This document shows, one piece after another, positions 10,329-48,847 of a stretch of 64,000 nt of DNA (position 1 is its first letter; each line of letters opens with the position of its first letter). The position numbers and the translations under genes were made by a program. The notes beneath the pieces are model-generated. The model was given only the letters and a program-made list of their open reading frames with translations. It had not been told where the DNA came from and did not search any database. Location of the stretch: contig NZ_SJPO01000008.1 of the NCBI RefSeq assembly GCF_007859935.1, positions 124,001 through 188,000 on the forward strand. The letters run 5' to 3'. Source of the DNA: Posidoniimonas polymericola. GTDB lineage: Bacteria > Planctomycetota > Planctomycetia > Pirellulales > Lacipirellulaceae.

Positions 10329-10370
10329 TGCCGCATCAGCTGCGGTGGGGCGGAGCCGGTCAGGTCTGCC

Positions 10371-10386
10371 TGTTTCACGTGAAACC
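10371..10386. promoter_or_regulatory. parS site 1
   Basis: TGTTTCACGTGAAACC matches 15 of the 16 bases of the ParB-binding consensus TGTTTCACGTGAAACA; only the last base differs. It lies in the 70-base gap between two membrane-protein genes, about 2 kb from parA. Confidence 0.93.
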
Positions 10387-10398
10387 AGCAATCGTCAG

Positions 10399-11202
10399 AT
10401 GAGCTACGAACAGCCCCGTCCGTCGGCCCGCCGGCTGGCCCAGTTGGAACGCCGCCCCCGCCGCCTGCAGGACGTCAACTGGCGGGAGATCCATTCGGCG
10501 ATCGCCTTCGCCGGCGCGGCGTACGTGCCGGTGGCGGTCGCCGCCCGGCTGTGGGGCGGGCGGTTTGAGGCGACCCCGCTTGGGCTGCTCTCGCCGCAAT
10601 CGGTCTGGGGCGAGGCGCTCACGGTCGTCGGTCTGGCGGGCCTCGGCTACTTCTGGTTCGCGCTGGTGGGGGCGATGGTGCTCGGCATGGTCGCCCTGGT
10701 GTTCGCCCTCTCGGGCACGCCGGTGCGGCAGGACTGGCTGGCCGGGTTCATCGCCGGCGGCGCCGCTGTCACGGGCGTGTTGCCCATTTCCGCCGGCGTG
10801 GTCGACGACCCGCACGACTTCTTCTGGGGCCCGGTGGTCGCGGTGATGATGATCCAACCGGTGGCGACCTACCTGGCGACCCGCGAGCTCAAGCAATTTG
10901 TGCGGGAGTCGTTCTGGTCCGCCGACGCCCAGATCACTGCCGCGCGTCGGTCGCTGAACCTGCAGATTAGCCTAGCGGCGATGTTCGGCGTGATGTCGGT
11001 CGCCAGCTTCGTGATGGGCCTGCTGCGTGTGAGCGGGCTGCTCGACGTCCCGGTTGCCCGGGTGCTATTGGGCGGGGTGCTGGTCGCGGTGCTGCTGCTG
11101 CCGGTCAGCGTGTGGGTCTCGCACCGGCTGCTGGGTCGGCGGTTCCCAATGCCAGCCCCAGCCCGCGGGGTCGAGGAGGCCCCGGCCTCGCCGTTCGACT
11201 GA
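10399..11202 (+). CDS. integral membrane protein, unknown function (third of the set), bracketed by parS sites
   Basis: About 267 residues from the ATG at 10399 (MSYEQPRPSARRLAQLER); an upstream in-frame extension would read through parS and is rejected. A basic, cytoplasmic N-terminus of about 40 residues is followed by several transmembrane helices and a proline-rich tail. The arrangement resembles the two upstream membrane proteins, though sequence similarity is weak by eye. I do not recognise the family. It is flanked on both sides by parS sites, so ParB spreading should cover it. Confidence 0.75.
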   Translation: MSYEQPRPSARRLAQLERRPRRLQDVNWREIHSAIAFAGAAYVPVAVAARLWGGRFEATPLGLLSPQSVWGEALTVVGLAGLGYFWFALVGAMVLGMVALVFALSGTPVRQDWLAGFIAGGAAVTGVLPISAGVVDDPHDFFWGPVVAVMMIQPVATYLATRELKQFVRESFWSADAQITAARRSLNLQISLAAMFGVMSVASFVMGLLRVSGLLDVPVARVLLGGVLVAVLLLPVSVWVSHRLLGRRFPMPAPARGVEEAPASPFD

Positions 11203-11259
11203 TCTCGCTGGCGGGGAGTCGGTTTGGGCGGCCAGTTTGGGGCGGTCGACCGGCTTGCC

Positions 11260-11275
11260 TGTTTCACGTGAAACA
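11260..11275. promoter_or_regulatory. parS site 2 (perfect)
   Basis: TGTTTCACGTGAAACA is identical to the conserved 16-bp parS palindrome. It lies 57 bases after the stop of the membrane-protein gene and 34 bases before a third site. Confidence 0.96.
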
Positions 11276-11308
11276 CCCAGCACGCGCGCACGGCAAGAAC
11301 CGCCTGAG

Positions 11309-11324
11309 CGTTTCACGTGAAACA
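11309..11324. promoter_or_regulatory. parS site 3
   Basis: CGTTTCACGTGAAACA differs from the consensus only at the first base. It lies 49 bases (start to start) from site 2, in the convergent gap before the DUF1015 gene. Confidence 0.93.
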
Positions 11325-11367
11325 GTCAGCCACGCGTGGAACGCGCTGCGGGGGAGCTTCGCCGAGC

Positions 11368-44900: not shown

Positions 44901-46679
44901 CTACTTCACCACGTCCGCAAACGCTGCCTTGAGCGCCCTCAGGCCGGAATCGCCCTGCTCGCGGGCGACCACCACGTTCACTTTGACTTCGCTAGTCGAG
45001 ATCAACTCGACGTTAATCCCGGACTCGCTGAGGGCGCGGAACATCCGGGTGCTGACCCCAGTGTGGCTGCGGATCCCCACGCCGTTGACCGACAGGATCG
45101 CCACGGTTTCGGATGCGGTAACGTCGCCGCCCAGCTTTGAGCTGAGCTCTTCGACCACCTTGCGGGCGCTGTCGATCTCGCTGGCGGGCACGGTGAAGCT
45201 GACGGTCGTCTTGCCGTCGGCGCCGACGCCCTGGACGATCATGTCGACAATGATTCCCTCGGCGGCGACCCCCTCGAAGATGTCGGCCGAGATGCCCGGT
45301 TGGTCGGGGACGTGCGACATCGTGATCAACGCCTGCGAGTCGTCGAGCTCGCAGCCCTGCACGGTCAGGTCCTCCATCGCCTGCAGCCCGCTGACTACGG
45401 CCGCAAGGTCGGCTGCCTGCGAGACCTTCTGCGAGGCCTCGAACGGCACGATCTTGGCGGGCGCGCGGTCGAGTTCGAACTCGCCGTGCACCGCGCGCAG
45501 CGCCTCAAGGCCCTGCTCCCGCTTCACCAGGCAGCTCACCTTGATCTCGCTGGTGGTGATGGCCTGGATGTTGATATTGGACTCCGCGAGCGCGCGGAAC
45601 ATCCGGTCGGCAACGCCCGATTGGGTCGCCATGCCGAGTCCCACCACCGAGACCTTGCAGACCGTTTCGTCATGCGAGATCGGGCCGGCGCCGAGCTCGG
45701 CGGCCGCGTCACGCACGGCGGCCAACGCCCGAGCGAGGTCGCCCTGCACAACCGTGAACGAGATGCTCGCCTTCCCCTCACTGCCGGGGGTCTGCAGGAT
45801 CATGTCAACCGTGATGTTGAGGTCGGCCAGTCGGCGGAAGATGTTGAGGCTGGCCCCCGGCTCGTCGGGCACGCCCTCGATCGTGATGCGGGCCTCTTCC
45901 TTGGTGAGCGCACAGCCGCTGACGGGGCGGTCGTCGGACTCGCTGATGGGTCCGATGATGGTGCCGGGCTCGTCGGTAAACACGCCGGAGTTGCGGACGT
46001 GAATCGGCACGTGGAACTTTTTGCCGAACTCGATCGAGCGGCTGTGCATCACGCCGGCGCCAAGGCTGGCGAGCTCGAGCATCTCGTCGTGGCTGACCTG
46101 CATCATCTTGCGGGCCGAAGCGACCAGCCGCGGGTCGGTCGTAAACACGCCGTCGACGTCGGTGTAGATCTCGCACATGTCGGCGCCGAGGACCGCCGCC
46201 AATGCCACGGCCGAGGTGTCGCTGCCGCCGCGGCCCAGCGTGGTGATGTTCAGCTCCTGGTCGACCCCCTGGAAGCCGGCCGCGATGACGATGTTGCCCT
46301 CGTCCAGCAGTCTCCGCATCCGGCTGGTGTCGATCGATTGGATCCGCGCCCGGGTGTGCGAGCTGTCGGTCAGGACGCCGATCTGGCCGCCGGTCAGGCT
46401 GACCGCCTTGCCGCCGAGGTCGTGGATGGCCATCGCCACCAACGCCACGGAGACCTGCTCACCGGTCGACAGCAGCATGTCCATCTCACGCGGCGAGGGG
46501 TCGTCGCACACCTGGCCCGCGAGGTCCACCAGGATGTCAGTGTTCTTGCCCATCGCGCTGACGACCATCACCACCTGGGCGCCCTGCTGCTGGGCGCGGA
46601 GAGCGCGACGGGCCGCCGCGCGGATCTTCTCGGCGTCGGCCACACTGGTGCCGCCAAATTTCTGAACGATTAGGGACAT
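44901..46679 (-). CDS. lysC: aspartate kinase with four ACT domains
   Basis: 592 residues from MSLIVQKFGGTSVADAEKIR. The kinase core has KFGGTS, MDMLLSTGEQVSVALV, TLGRGGSDTSAVALAA and YTDVDGVFTTDPR. The regulatory part is doubled: ACT pairs at about 265-410 (ITIEGVPDEPGASLNIFRRL and VSVVGLGMATQSGVADRMF) and again at about 430-585 (ITMSHVPDQPGISADIFEGV and LSVNGVGIRSHTGVSTRMFR). Four ACT domains are known in some cyanobacterial enzymes. It phosphorylates aspartate, opening threonine, lysine and methionine synthesis; feedback inhibition is expected. Starts before 46679 lack sense. Confidence 0.96.
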   Translation of the reverse strand: MSLIVQKFGGTSVADAEKIRAAARRALRAQQQGAQVVMVVSAMGKNTDILVDLAGQVCDDPSPREMDMLLSTGEQVSVALVAMAIHDLGGKAVSLTGGQIGVLTDSSHTRARIQSIDTSRMRRLLDEGNIVIAAGFQGVDQELNITTLGRGGSDTSAVALAAVLGADMCEIYTDVDGVFTTDPRLVASARKMMQVSHDEMLELASLGAGVMHSRSIEFGKKFHVPIHVRNSGVFTDEPGTIIGPISESDDRPVSGCALTKEEARITIEGVPDEPGASLNIFRRLADLNITVDMILQTPGSEGKASISFTVVQGDLARALAAVRDAAAELGAGPISHDETVCKVSVVGLGMATQSGVADRMFRALAESNINIQAITTSEIKVSCLVKREQGLEALRAVHGEFELDRAPAKIVPFEASQKVSQAADLAAVVSGLQAMEDLTVQGCELDDSQALITMSHVPDQPGISADIFEGVAAEGIIVDMIVQGVGADGKTTVSFTVPASEIDSARKVVEELSSKLGGDVTASETVAILSVNGVGIRSHTGVSTRMFRALSESGINVELISTSEVKVNVVVAREQGDSGLRALKAAFADVVK

Positions 46680-46743
46680 GGTTGCTAGTGGAACGGTTGT
46701 TGATGGGGACCGCCAAGACGCCAAGACGCCAAGTTGGTTTCCG

Positions 46744-47130
46744 TTAGGTTAAGACAACTCGCTTAATGCCGTCTTTCAGCAAGACGACGTGAAAATTGAT
46801 TAGTAGCCCGAGCTCAAGCTCGGTCGCCTTCAGGTAGTTGATGACCTTCGCGTGGTGGATAGGGTGCAGCGCTTCAGTCGCTTTCAGCTCGACGACCAAT
46901 CGCTCACCGACGAGCAAATCGAGCCGGGCATCTCCGACGGGGCGCCCCTTGTACCGTAGTGCAACGGGTTTCTGGCGTTCGAACGCCACGCCTCGCAATT
47001 CCAGTTCAATACAGAGGGCTTCTTCGTAGGTTGACTCAAGGAACCCGGGGCCGAGGATCTTGTGTACCTCCAAGGCCGCGTCGACGACTTCCGCCGCCAG
47101 TTGGTCGAGTTCTGCATCGGGCTCTCGCAT
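46744..47130 (-). CDS. GxxExxY family protein (PD-(D/E)XK nuclease-like)
   Basis: 128 residues. The family motif GFLESTY (Gly29-Tyr35) is followed by a PD-(D/E)XK-like core: RLDLLVGERLVVELKATEAL, in which Asp71, Glu81 and Lys83 occupy the catalytic positions. Family members have no established function; a nuclease fold is predicted. GC looks clearly lower than in the neighbouring lysC. It is bracketed by inverted repeats at 46709 and 47144, so it is likely a passenger or driver of a repeat-bounded cassette. Confidence 0.85.
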   Translation of the reverse strand: MREPDAELDQLAAEVVDAALEVHKILGPGFLESTYEEALCIELELRGVAFERQKPVALRYKGRPVGDARLDLLVGERLVVELKATEALHPIHHAKVINYLKATELELGLLINFHVVLLKDGIKRVVLT

Positions 47131-47143
47131 AGAACTCGCTTCC

Positions 47144-47168
47144 CTTGGCGACTTGGCGTCTTGGCGGT
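47144..47168 (-). repeat. right inverted repeat of the GxxExxY cassette
   Basis: Read on the plus strand CTTGGCGACTTGGCGTCTTG plus GCGGT. It is the reverse complement of 46709-46733 with one mismatch (T for A in the spacer between units 2 and 3). It ends 4 bases before the downstream stop codon. Confidence 0.9.
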
Positions 47169-47172
47169 TTTT

Positions 47173-48402
47173 TTATTCGCCGATGAACCACCGCATCGCG
47201 TCCCACCCCTTGTCGAACGTCAGCTCGCTGGCCGCGGCGTTTGTGTCGCCGTAGGCCTGGCATGCGTCGGGGGTGACGCCGGCGCCGGCCATGGCGACCG
47301 GTACGTTGCCGTGGGTGTGCTTCTTGGTGCTGAGGAACGTCGGGTGGTCGGGGCTGATCATCACCCGCCAGTCGCCGTGGCTCGTTAGCGCTTCGAGCAG
47401 CGGGCCGACGATGTGCTGGTCGATCTGCTCGATTGCCTTGACCTTCTCATCGCAGCGGCCCTCGTGGCTGGCTTCGTCGGGCGCCTCGATGTGGACGCAG
47501 ACAATGTCGTACTTGTTTAATGCCTGGATCGCGGCCCGCCCTTTGGCGGCGTAGTCGGTGTCGAGGTAGCCGGTGGCGCCGTCGACCTCGATCCGGTCCC
47601 AGCCGACCAGCGCGGCGATGCCCCGCAGCAGGTCGACCGCCGTGATCATCGCGCCCTTGGGTCCGAATTTCTGAGCGAACGGCTCGAGAGACGGTGCGCC
47701 CCCCTGGCCCCACAGCCAGGTGTTGGTGGCCGGGCTCTTGCCGTTGGCGATGCGGGTCTTGTTGACCGGGTGGTCGGCCAGCAAGTCGGCGCACGCGTCC
47801 ATCAGCTCGACCAACACATCGGCCCCGGGACCGCGTGGGTGGGCATTGGCGACCGGCAGGTCGGTCCAGTCGTGCGGCGCCTCGGTGCGGGTCGATTTGT
47901 CAAACGGCGCGGCGAGCTTCGCCCCCCGCCAGATCAACAGGTTGCGGTAGCTGACGCCGGGCACGAACTCGAGCGCGCCTTTCCACTTCGGGTCGCTGGC
48001 GATTTCGGCCTGTACCGACTCGAACAGGGCGGTCGACTCCTCGGTCGAGATGTGATCCGCGGTGAAGTCCTGCATCACCCGCTCGCCGTCGACTTCGCCG
48101 ATGGTGACCAGGTTGCAGCGGACGGCCCAGTCGCCCTTGCCGAGCGCGATCCGCTGGGCGGCGGCCTCCATCGGCGCGCGGCCGGTGAAGTGCGCGAACG
48201 GGTCGTACCCCAGCAGGCTGAGGTTGCCGATCTCCGACCCGGCCGGCAGCTCGTCAGGCGTGTGGCACGCGCTGGCGATCACCCCCTGGGCGACCACCGC
48301 GTCCATGTGCGGGGTAGCGGCCGCCTCAAGCGGGGTCTTACCACCGAGCGACTCCTGCGGCTGATCGGCGGCGCCGTCGGGGATGATGATGAGGTATTTC
48401 AT
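47173..48402 (-). CDS. proposed homoserine kinase (archaeal-type phosphoglycerate mutase-like)
   Basis: 409 residues from MKYLIIIPDGAADQPQESLG. Alkaline-phosphatase-superfamily metal sites appear as PDGAAD at the N-terminus and as IEAPDEASHEG and SPDHPTFLSTKKHTHG at the C-terminus. This is the ApgM-type fold that TIGRFAM/COG entries describe both as cofactor-independent phosphoglycerate mutase and as a proposed homoserine kinase. Its place between hom and lysC favours the homoserine kinase role. The reading MHTIRN from 48444 is dropped because it runs through the CCGAAATC repeat; no ribosome binding site is visible before 48402. Confidence 0.85.
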   Translation of the reverse strand: MKYLIIIPDGAADQPQESLGGKTPLEAAATPHMDAVVAQGVIASACHTPDELPAGSEIGNLSLLGYDPFAHFTGRAPMEAAAQRIALGKGDWAVRCNLVTIGEVDGERVMQDFTADHISTEESTALFESVQAEIASDPKWKGALEFVPGVSYRNLLIWRGAKLAAPFDKSTRTEAPHDWTDLPVANAHPRGPGADVLVELMDACADLLADHPVNKTRIANGKSPATNTWLWGQGGAPSLEPFAQKFGPKGAMITAVDLLRGIAALVGWDRIEVDGATGYLDTDYAAKGRAAIQALNKYDIVCVHIEAPDEASHEGRCDEKVKAIEQIDQHIVGPLLEALTSHGDWRVMISPDHPTFLSTKKHTHGNVPVAMAGAGVTPDACQAYGDTNAAASELTFDKGWDAMRWFIGE

Positions 48403-48404
48403 TC

Positions 48405-48437
48405 GATTTCGGATTGGTGATTTCGGATTGCGGATTG
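48405..48437. repeat. left tandem repeat GATTTCGGATTG (brackets the zinc-ribbon gene)
   Basis: GATTTCGGATTG GT GATTTCGGATTGCGGATTG on the plus strand, starting 2 bases after the start codon of the homoserine kinase-like gene. The related inverted copy lies at 48819-48847. Confidence 0.85.
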
Positions 48438-48448
48438 TGTGCAATCAA

Positions 48449-48817
48449 CTAGTGCCAGTCGTGTCCGCACCAGAGGCATTGTTTGGCAACCGGAGTACGA
48501 ACAATACGTTGGCAAGCAGGACACCGATTGATGAACACATCTTCCCTTTTCTGAGAGATGATCCGTCTCGCTGCATCGTCTAAATAGCTTTCGATGTCAC
48601 CTTCGATGATCTGACGTATCCGATCGCTTCCGTTGATGTATGACTCAATGTCGTCTTTTGCATGGTCAATTGGAGTTTCTCGATGTGACTGCTTGTTTCG
48701 CAGTACAGCGATTGCGATGACGCAGCGTTCCTCATCGCTGAAGAGATGAGGGTAGTAGGCGTTGAGGTACCACCGGAGGGCGGTGTCGTCGTGGTAGTCC
48801 TCGGAGTCTTCTGCCAT
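48449..48817 (-). CDS. small zinc-ribbon protein of unknown family, low GC
   Basis: 122 residues. The C-terminal 30 residues hold a double CxxC ribbon: CPACQRIVRTPVAKQCLWCG followed by HDWH. The N-terminal part is helical and acidic (SEDYHDDTALRWYLNAYYPH, ESYINGSDRIRQIIEGDIES). I do not recognise the family. GC is near 48 percent by eye, clearly below the surrounding high GC, indicating recent arrival. It fills the gap between hom and the homoserine kinase-like gene and is bracketed by inverted tandem repeats. Confidence 0.7.
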   Translation of the reverse strand: MAEDSEDYHDDTALRWYLNAYYPHLFSDEERCVIAIAVLRNKQSHRETPIDHAKDDIESYINGSDRIRQIIEGDIESYLDDAARRIISQKREDVFINRCPACQRIVRTPVAKQCLWCGHDWH

Positions 48818-48818
48818 T

Positions 48819-48847
48819 CCGAAATCTGCAATCCGAAATCCGCAATC
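48819..48847. repeat. right tandem repeat CCGAAATCTGCAATCC (inverted copy)
   Basis: CCGAAATCTGCAATCCGAAA followed by TCCGCAATC; its reverse complement shares GATTTCGGATTGC with 48405-48437. It begins next to the start codon of the zinc-ribbon gene (48817) and ends one base before the hom stop codon (48849). Confidence 0.85.

Follow-up and report, generated by a model that had tools for sequence, protein, structure and literature searches.

Between the apgM and lysC genes of Posidoniimonas polymericola lies a small gene of the GxxExxY family enclosed by two inverted repeats. The question raised by this locus is whether gene and repeats form a mobile element, and what part the encoded protein may play in it. 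The initial annotation of the window (the whole 64,000-nucleotide stretch of DNA analysed) proposed a minimal mobile element whose only gene might itself recognise the repeats. The features concerned are as follows.

46709..47168, no strand: whole cassette, two palindrome arms and one gene, filling the apgM-lysC gap
46709..46733, plus strand: left arm, three CGCCAAG units at 8-bp spacing, ACCGCCAAGACGCCAAGACGCCAAG
47144..47168, minus strand: right arm, inverted copy of the left arm, 24/25 complementary, three units
46744..47130, minus strand: GxxExxY gene, 128 aa, PD-(D/E)XK nuclease-like
44901..46679, minus strand: lysC, aspartate kinase (context)
47173..48405, minus strand: apgM, cofactor-independent phosphoglycerate mutase (context; start approximate, open frame to 48444)

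The two arms, 25 nt each with 410 nt between them, are 96% complementary, which is the highest complementarity among the 25 longest inverted pairs of the window (60 pairs were found in a scan for arms of at least 20 nt lying within 900 nt). The exact double unit CGCCAAGNCGCCAAG is confined, within the window, to these two arms. The right arm with the next bases ends in GGCGGTT, which corresponds to the AACC outer end common to many of the arms listed. The cassette begins 29 bases from the lysC start and ends 4 bases from the apgM stop. Its GC content is 57.6%, and that of the GxxExxY gene 57.1%, as against 66.8% for lysC and 68.1% for apgM; a GC as low as that of the gene is found in 0.7% of 387-bp windows. 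The annotated 25-nt inverted repeats of three CGCCAAG-type units with one mismatch, the exact fit into the gap at 4 bases from the upstream stop and about 30 from lysC, and a GC lower than in the neighbours are thus all borne out by measurement. Elsewhere in the window, positions 10366–11328 show repeated TGTTTCACGTGAAACA-like sites with two inverted pairs, which appear to resemble the consensus of parS/ParB sites.

The 128-aa product matches TIGR04256 with 140.1 bits (cut-off 35) and PF13366 with 137.8 bits (cut-off 22), in both cases over the whole profile, and is therefore a member of the family. Its key residues are H23, E32, D71, E81, K83 and Y99; position 95 is K, where 230/239 homologues have Q. 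E32, D71 and K83 are present in 239/239 aligned homologues, E81 in 236 (the rest show Asp) and Y99 in 235. The PD-(D/E)XK core of Asp71, Glu81 and Lys83, described as intact in the initial annotation, is near-invariant. The closest unsaturated pairs give dN/dS values of about 0.05–0.16, e.g. dN 0.056 against dS 1.06, and these substitution rates indicate that the gene is under purifying selection.

An AlphaFold2 model (37 sequences; pLDDT 95.0, pTM 0.88) displays the PD-(D/E)XK core fold with the Asp and the Glu-x-Lys in place. The top Foldseek match is lambda exonuclease, a weak match (E 8e-4, TM 0.51). With VIA-align the top match is SSO0001 (4ic1), which we take to be a Cas4 protein, with Z 9.6 over 101 residues at 4.4 A, followed at Z 6–7 by Cas4 4r5q, MGME1, restriction enzymes, Hjc and others; structural matches with Z under about 8 are not decisive. 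The predicted fold is thus PD-(D/E)XK, with Cas4-type nucleases as the nearest relatives in the model comparison. A Holliday-junction resolvase might be suggested by Hjc 1gef (Z 6.7), with Cas4-type matches ranking as high or higher. By sequence, no relative of the window protein was found in the PDB and no match in PHROGs. PADLOC gave a weak Cas4b hit as its sole match (E 0.0016, 16.9 bits), which does not place the protein in a known anti-phage defence system. Cas4, lambda exonuclease and MGME1 are RecB-like PD-(D/E)XK nucleases, and GxxExxY resembles them in fold, in active-site layout and, in most homologues, in Q(95)xxxY(99), the pattern known as the QxxxY motif and associated with RecB-like nucleases. 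It differs from them in standing alone, at 128 aa, and in having repeat arms of its own, and the likeness to Cas4 is one of fold (Foldseek TM 0.5 at best) and of a weak profile match, not of sequence in the PDB.

The family is widespread. GxxExxY genes are present in 48/59 genomes of relatives (own genome included), with up to 12 copies per genome, and in 70/149 genomes of a phylum sample. A wider collection consisted of the best 80 of at least 579 relatives, from many bacterial phyla and two archaea (Methanothrix, Methanoperedens). At each locus inverted similarity was scored between the two flanks of the gene, with cut-offs of 26 and 34. Flanks shorter than 200 bases excluded 7 of the 241 loci, and removal of three repeats from the remaining 234 left 231. 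The repeats were the same gene under two identifiers (L036/L221, L137/L295 and L120/L193, one of each left out of the 231); counts of unit type, period and residue conservation still hold all three pairs. L112, a duplicate of L002, was excluded. The loci are the top of score-ordered lists, not a random sample.

Bracketing inverted repeats with a score of 26 or more are found at 200 of the 231 distinct, nearly all bacterial, GxxExxY loci, and at 158/231 with a score of 34 or more. By set, the numbers at 26 are 86/91 for the relatives, 55/66 for the phylum loci and 59/74 for the others, and at 34 they are 70/91, 47/66 and 41/74. Shifted windows without such a gene reach the two cut-offs in 12/192 and 1/192 cases and apgM genes in 2/30 and 2/30. 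When flanks are paired across different loci the values are 14–15% at 26 and 3–5% at 34; that such pairs score at all is due in part to unit types shared between loci. Matches in direct orientation with a score of 34 or more occur at 6/91, 23/67 and 14/76 loci of the three sets. Below 26 are 31/231 loci, among them both archaeal ones (L230 with 17, L293 with 25, the latter showing CACAGAG-type units by eye), so that the claim of bracketing holds for bacteria only. A lack of repeats in most homologues would have spoken against the cassette, and the opposite is found.

A plasmid or phage vehicle for GxxExxY was considered and rejected: with the window protein as the one query, the family was found in 8/72,556 plasmid records and 0/50,697 phage records. 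One IMG/VR viral contig carries a GxxExxY gene, and there the arms are present with a score of 47. At the DNA level there was no match in E. coli.

The arms do not share one sequence. Units of the form CRCN(AA|GA|AC)G, at least three per locus, are present at 151/203 arrayed GxxExxY loci (repeats included), and other types around these genes include CGCAGATGAA, CACGAATTA, ACAGGATTA, CATGAAG and GGGAGATG. The flanking repeats of GxxExxY genes thus stand as an architecture, which is general, and not as one fixed sequence, many unit types being found instead. Within a locus the unit type is pure, with a mean of 96% among units that fit the CRCN(AA|GA|AC)G motif. The period is 8 or 9 bp in 121/135 clearly periodic GxxExxY arms and in 242/335 of all arms measured.

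Arm sequence and protein sequence vary together, as repeat and gene do in REPIN/RAYT systems. Protein identity correlates by rank with arm similarity at rho 0.44 over 3556 between-genome pairs (86 loci, 35 genomes). This value is reached by 0/500 full permutations and by 0/500 within-genome swaps (within-genome mean 0.13, maximum 0.25). Removal of pairs with homologous flanks leaves rho 0.40 over 3361 pairs, again with 0/500 in each permutation and a within-genome mean of 0.14. A host component is visible in the rho of 0.13–0.14 that within-genome permutations still give. The arms therefore follow mainly the protein and to a small extent the host, and not the site alone. This co-variation lends indirect support to the idea that the GxxExxY protein may read its repeats.

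The unit of the window cassette is also found without the gene. The P. polymericola genome has 28 exact double units CGCCAAGNCGCCAAG (reversed-pattern control 0), which are arranged as six inverted pairs and a further six arrays that have no exact partner close by. One of the six pairs encloses GxxExxY; the other five are gene-less, with 19–100 bp between units and interiors that are unrelated by eye. With gene-less pairs at 5:1 over the gene-bearing copy, a population of the REPIN/RAYT kind fits better than a lone minimal transposon. Two further GxxExxY genes of this genome are bracketed by inverted arrays of other units, of AACCACCAAGACACGAAGGCAC and GGAGCAGAGAGAGCAGAGG types.

A larger population is seen in genome G022, where the GxxExxY cassette L037 has CGCCAAGGACGCCAAGAGCGCCAAGG arms. 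This unit gives 510 exact hits in the genome (control 0), and among the 100 hits listed (contigs C1–C3) 23/32 array sites are pairs, all plus then minus. Dispersed gene-less inverted doublets of a resident repeat, as known from REPIN/RAYT, are thus present in both P. polymericola and G022. Moreover, 20/23 of the G022 elements contain a second palindrome that beats 20 shuffles and, judged from its arms, is built of another unit type; this Russian-doll nesting of palindromes is visible in the sequence.

These data suggest that the cassette belongs to an extensive family of miniature palindromic elements, similar to REPIN/RAYT in way of life, in which the partner would be a PD-(D/E)XK nuclease reading its own arrays. 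We give this reading a probability of roughly 0.58.

Array abundance follows the resident gene type loosely. Counts of two unit types over the 59 genomes spread over orders of magnitude, with 0–7 hits for reversed-pattern controls. Among 36 family genomes, the 11 with the window's protein type show a median of 41 hits of the window's unit versus 2 (p = 0.004, ignoring phylogeny). Exceptions occur both ways. G005, G017 and G021 have the protein type and 4, 2 and 2 hits, respectively. High counts without an intact window-type copy among the listed matches are found in G015 (180), G027 (155), G030 (121), G016 (30), G007 (20), G012 (16) and G003 (16); the window-type gene is truncated in G027 and decayed in G007. 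For the CACGACG unit, hits number 36, 61, 21, 57 and 1 in the five genomes from which a locus of this type was retrieved, the median elsewhere being 1, with high counts also in G022 (80), G020 (60), G018 (31) and G019 (30); carriers are known from retrieved loci only. A one-to-one rule of array abundance and resident gene type was accordingly rejected. With three pattern counts summed, the median is 1 in the 11 genomes without a detected GxxExxY gene and 6.5 in the 48 with one (p = 0.001, ignoring phylogeny). The one high value among the 11 is that of G007 (33), where the apgM-lysC gap holds the decayed remnant of a GxxExxY gene end, 36 codons long with one stop and at most 64% identical to a homologue, between CCAAG arms.

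Arrays are also seen in other settings. In G030, CGCCAAG arrays lie just inside the ends of a MITE family of about 280 bp (L303–L320) with termini CAGGAGAACTGCAAAGTC / CAGGACGCTTTCAAAGTC, and an element of this genome folds far better than its shuffles (z -5.7). In G006, G024 and G018, CGCCAAG arms 400–830 bp apart enclose other open frames of about 100–290 aa (L373, L375, L377); inspection by eye of the open frames at loci of this type brought no transposase to notice.

Palindromes of the same design enclose other gene families as well. The gap next to the window cassette contains a second one:

48405..48847, no strand: second cassette, inverted GGATTGC/GGATTTC-type arrays (26 nt, 88%) around a 122-aa gene
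48405–48430 / 48815–48840: arrays of the second cassette
48449–48817, minus strand: 122-aa gene, matching no family, with a CxxC...CxxC end

The same gap of the same-genus genome G001 holds a 36.8%-identical gene with arrays that are alike by eye. P. polymericola also has two four-helix-bundle genes, one with arrays of the GGATTGC/GGATTTC kind and the other without arrays. A set of 32 four-helix-bundle (TIGR02436, S23/IVP) loci, made up of these two and the best 30 of relatives (L301 1410–1870; L383–L412), is bracketed by inverted repeats in 29/32 cases at a score of 26 and 23/32 at 34, mismatched flanks giving 14% and 4.9%. In these arms the period is 7 in 41/42 clear cases. Gene family thus goes with array geometry, 8–9 bp with GxxExxY and 7 bp with the four-helix bundle. 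One report describes a 428-nt selfish element, the Coxiella 23S intervening sequence (IVS), with inverted repeats, one small gene and tandem heptamers before the S23p start (PMC4990558), with which the 7-bp arrays agree.

Such cases bear on an alternative in which another transposase is responsible for moving the palindromes, with GxxExxY as cargo or as a passenger settling in them. It would account for the CGCCAAG arms around unrelated open frames, for the G030 arrays inside a MITE with separate terminal repeats, for the four-helix-bundle genes and the 122-aa gene in similar palindromes, and for the several genomes that are rich in arrays without an intact gene of matching type. Yet bracketing at 200/231 loci across phyla would be unexpected for a mere passenger, the unit sequence follows the GxxExxY sequence even at unrelated sites, the period differs between the two gene families, and no transposase was noticed among the open frames inspected by eye. 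This alternative we regard as unlikely, and a nuclease acting on its own arrays is preferred.

The apgM-lysC gap was surveyed at 30 loci, the window's included, the states being judged by eye from the sequence. The window's GxxExxY type fills the gap in 7/30 loci (the other six being 64–69% identical) and another GxxExxY type in 2/30. Gene-less inverted arrays of the GxxExxY class are found in 5/30, one with a decayed gene, other tandem arrays in 4/30, three of them clearly inverted, and no inverted tandem pair in 5/30. L073 and L085 were not read, and at 5/30 loci lysC is not beside apgM in the available stretch. Further gene-less inverted tandem-array classes (CGAATGACGAAT, ACAGGATT) were observed in this gap at L078, L080 and L083. 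As the window copy sits in the same gap of six relatives, it appears to be a long-standing resident and not a fresh insertion. In the same-genus G001 the gap is 144 bp, has no CGCCAAG arrays and is not alignable base by base.

Empty sites are found at other loci. L128 of G027 is a 458-bp cassette between two genes, and its joined flanks are continuous in G015, G022 and G033, all of one genus. Alignment shows an empty gap at this site in G022. In G033 the site holds about 76 unrelated bases and no array, in G015 one CGACG-like arm, and in G031 a CGCGAAT palindrome without a gene; G002 has other sequence there. The joined site of L156 is continuous in G033, with 134–138 bases between the flanks in G015 and G022. 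For the gene-less elements, an inverted CGAATGACGAAT element, about 126 bp long, lies in the apgM-lysC gap of G015 and is lacking from that of G027. Relatives thus show empty sites of the kind expected for a transposon, both for L128 (in G022) and for a gene-less element (G015/G027). A gap occupied identically in all relatives, with no empty counterpart, would have argued against mobility; instead, the same gaps are found filled, with arrays alone, or empty. The initial proposal of a minimal mobile element around GxxExxY is thus supported by the general bracketing and the varying gap states in its mobile part, and gives way to a REPIN/RAYT-like population as regards a lone minimal unit.

The target-site duplication of classical MITEs and DNA transposons is not seen. 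An abutting direct match of at least 4 bases occurs in 5.0% of 181 loci against 7.4% expected, so there is no general duplication; direct matches of at least 7 within the 20 outer bases occur in 3.3% against 1.2% expected, i.e. a few loci with 7–8 bases near the ends. A strain-level empty site for a Bacteroides plasmid cassette was not obtained, there being no second copy of the region. The left arm of this cassette (L381, about 2385–2420; 32–35 bases) recurs on two other Bacteroides plasmids, away from the listed GxxExxY genes.

The changing state of the gaps also bears on two readings without mobility. The arrays might serve the host in regulation or structure, as terminators, RNase III sites or mRNA insulators, and be kept by selection, the gene being there because palindromes tolerate insertion. 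The elements read do lie in intergenic gaps, palindromes of several unit types occur in the same gaps, and the fold of the G030 element would suit such a role; but from one relative to the next the same gap changes between different unit types, a gene-bearing copy and an empty state, hits range from 0 to >500 between relatives, and Rfam at gathering scores gave 0 matches in 14 loci. A host role for the arrays is therefore very improbable in our judgement. Alternatively, GxxExxY could be a genome-maintenance nuclease that trims or resolves palindromes, the cassette being immobile and spreading by recombination and horizontal transfer. A fold related to repair and end-processing nucleases, the window copy kept in place in six relatives and the rarity on mobile replicons at the sensitivity used (the plasmid and phage counts above and the one viral contig) are in line with this. 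However, up to 12 copies per genome, the compact unit formed by arms and gene, and the empty sites within the same genus are not, and a house-keeping enzyme would not need arms of its own with matching unit type. We consider it quite improbable, and the self-reading nuclease element is again preferred.

Among known systems the closest parallel is REPIN/RAYT. Both have dispersed intergenic gene-less inverted doublets able to form hairpins, a doublet sequence that matches the resident gene type, and singlets as remnants, and RAYTs are thought to move or maintain REPINs in trans (PMC3116915). The partner is different: the RAYT (REP-associated tyrosine transposase) is an HUH Y1 enzyme and GxxExxY, a PD-(D/E)XK nuclease, is not. 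In addition, REPIN arms are single REPs while GxxExxY arms are tandem arrays of 8–9 bp units, the GxxExxY gene lies inside the palindrome, and there are several gene types in up to 12 copies per genome. The 23S rRNA IVS with S23p is alike in having inverted repeats and one small gene (PMC4990558), and differs in its unrelated four-helix-bundle fold (the GxxExxY model is alpha/beta), its 7-bp units and its site in an rRNA helix. MITEs are alike as numerous short gene-less inverted-repeat elements beside genes. The GxxExxY elements differ from them in having no general target duplication, arms made of short tandem arrays, interiors that differ or hold nested palindromes, and a partner gene other than a known transposase.

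Short tandem units between genes have also been described as intergenic heptamers, viz. GGGAATC in Xanthomonas, GGGGA(C/T)T in Nostoc and TAACTGA in Beggiatoaceae; the Xanthomonas heptamers are reported to form 70 and 75 convergent pairs, generally not with mobile elements (PMC4692102, PMC4679880). With 7-bp units they are closer to the four-helix-bundle class, and the TAACTGA sets are direct repeats. In the open-access literature searched, no account of the GxxExxY-array association was found; where open-access papers mention GxxExxY, the passages concerned do not deal with repeats.

A mechanism can be proposed on this basis. The element would consist of two inverted arrays of a short unit with a period of 8–9 bp, often with an AACC outer end; a central GxxExxY gene would make it a gene-bearing copy, and gene-less palindromes of matching unit would be its dispersed, probably non-autonomous copies. 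The unit recognised by the PD-(D/E)XK protein is most likely its own, several copies being bound along each array. Recognition may take place on the cruciform or single-stranded hairpin formed by the two arms, where the protein would cut. Repair or replication of the cut could then lead to loss of the palindrome, to its copying to new intergenic places, or to its insertion in the middle of other palindromes, with no duplication of the target. Gene-less palindromes would be moved or maintained in trans by the GxxExxY nuclease, a proposal supported by the co-variation, the period specific to each gene family, the gene-less copies and the nesting.

A wider idea is put forward tentatively, as a possibility that we hold at somewhat below even odds. 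GxxExxY and four-helix-bundle (S23/IVP) genes may drive one unrecognised superclass of palindromic mobile elements, each protein with its own array geometry (8–9 versus 7 bp), that would target the centres of palindromes or hairpins, including each other and rRNA helices, and could explain a large share of anonymous intergenic short tandem repeats.

The curated GxxExxY family, often multi-copy and so far without an assigned role, is now tied to a definite DNA partner, which gives it a first testable function. The association also offers an origin for a class of short-unit arrays between genes that mostly go without explanation, and provides an example of REPIN-like life based on an entirely different enzyme. 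Should this be confirmed, specificity could be read from the flanking arrays, and the family would represent a naturally diversified set of small sequence-specific nucleases.
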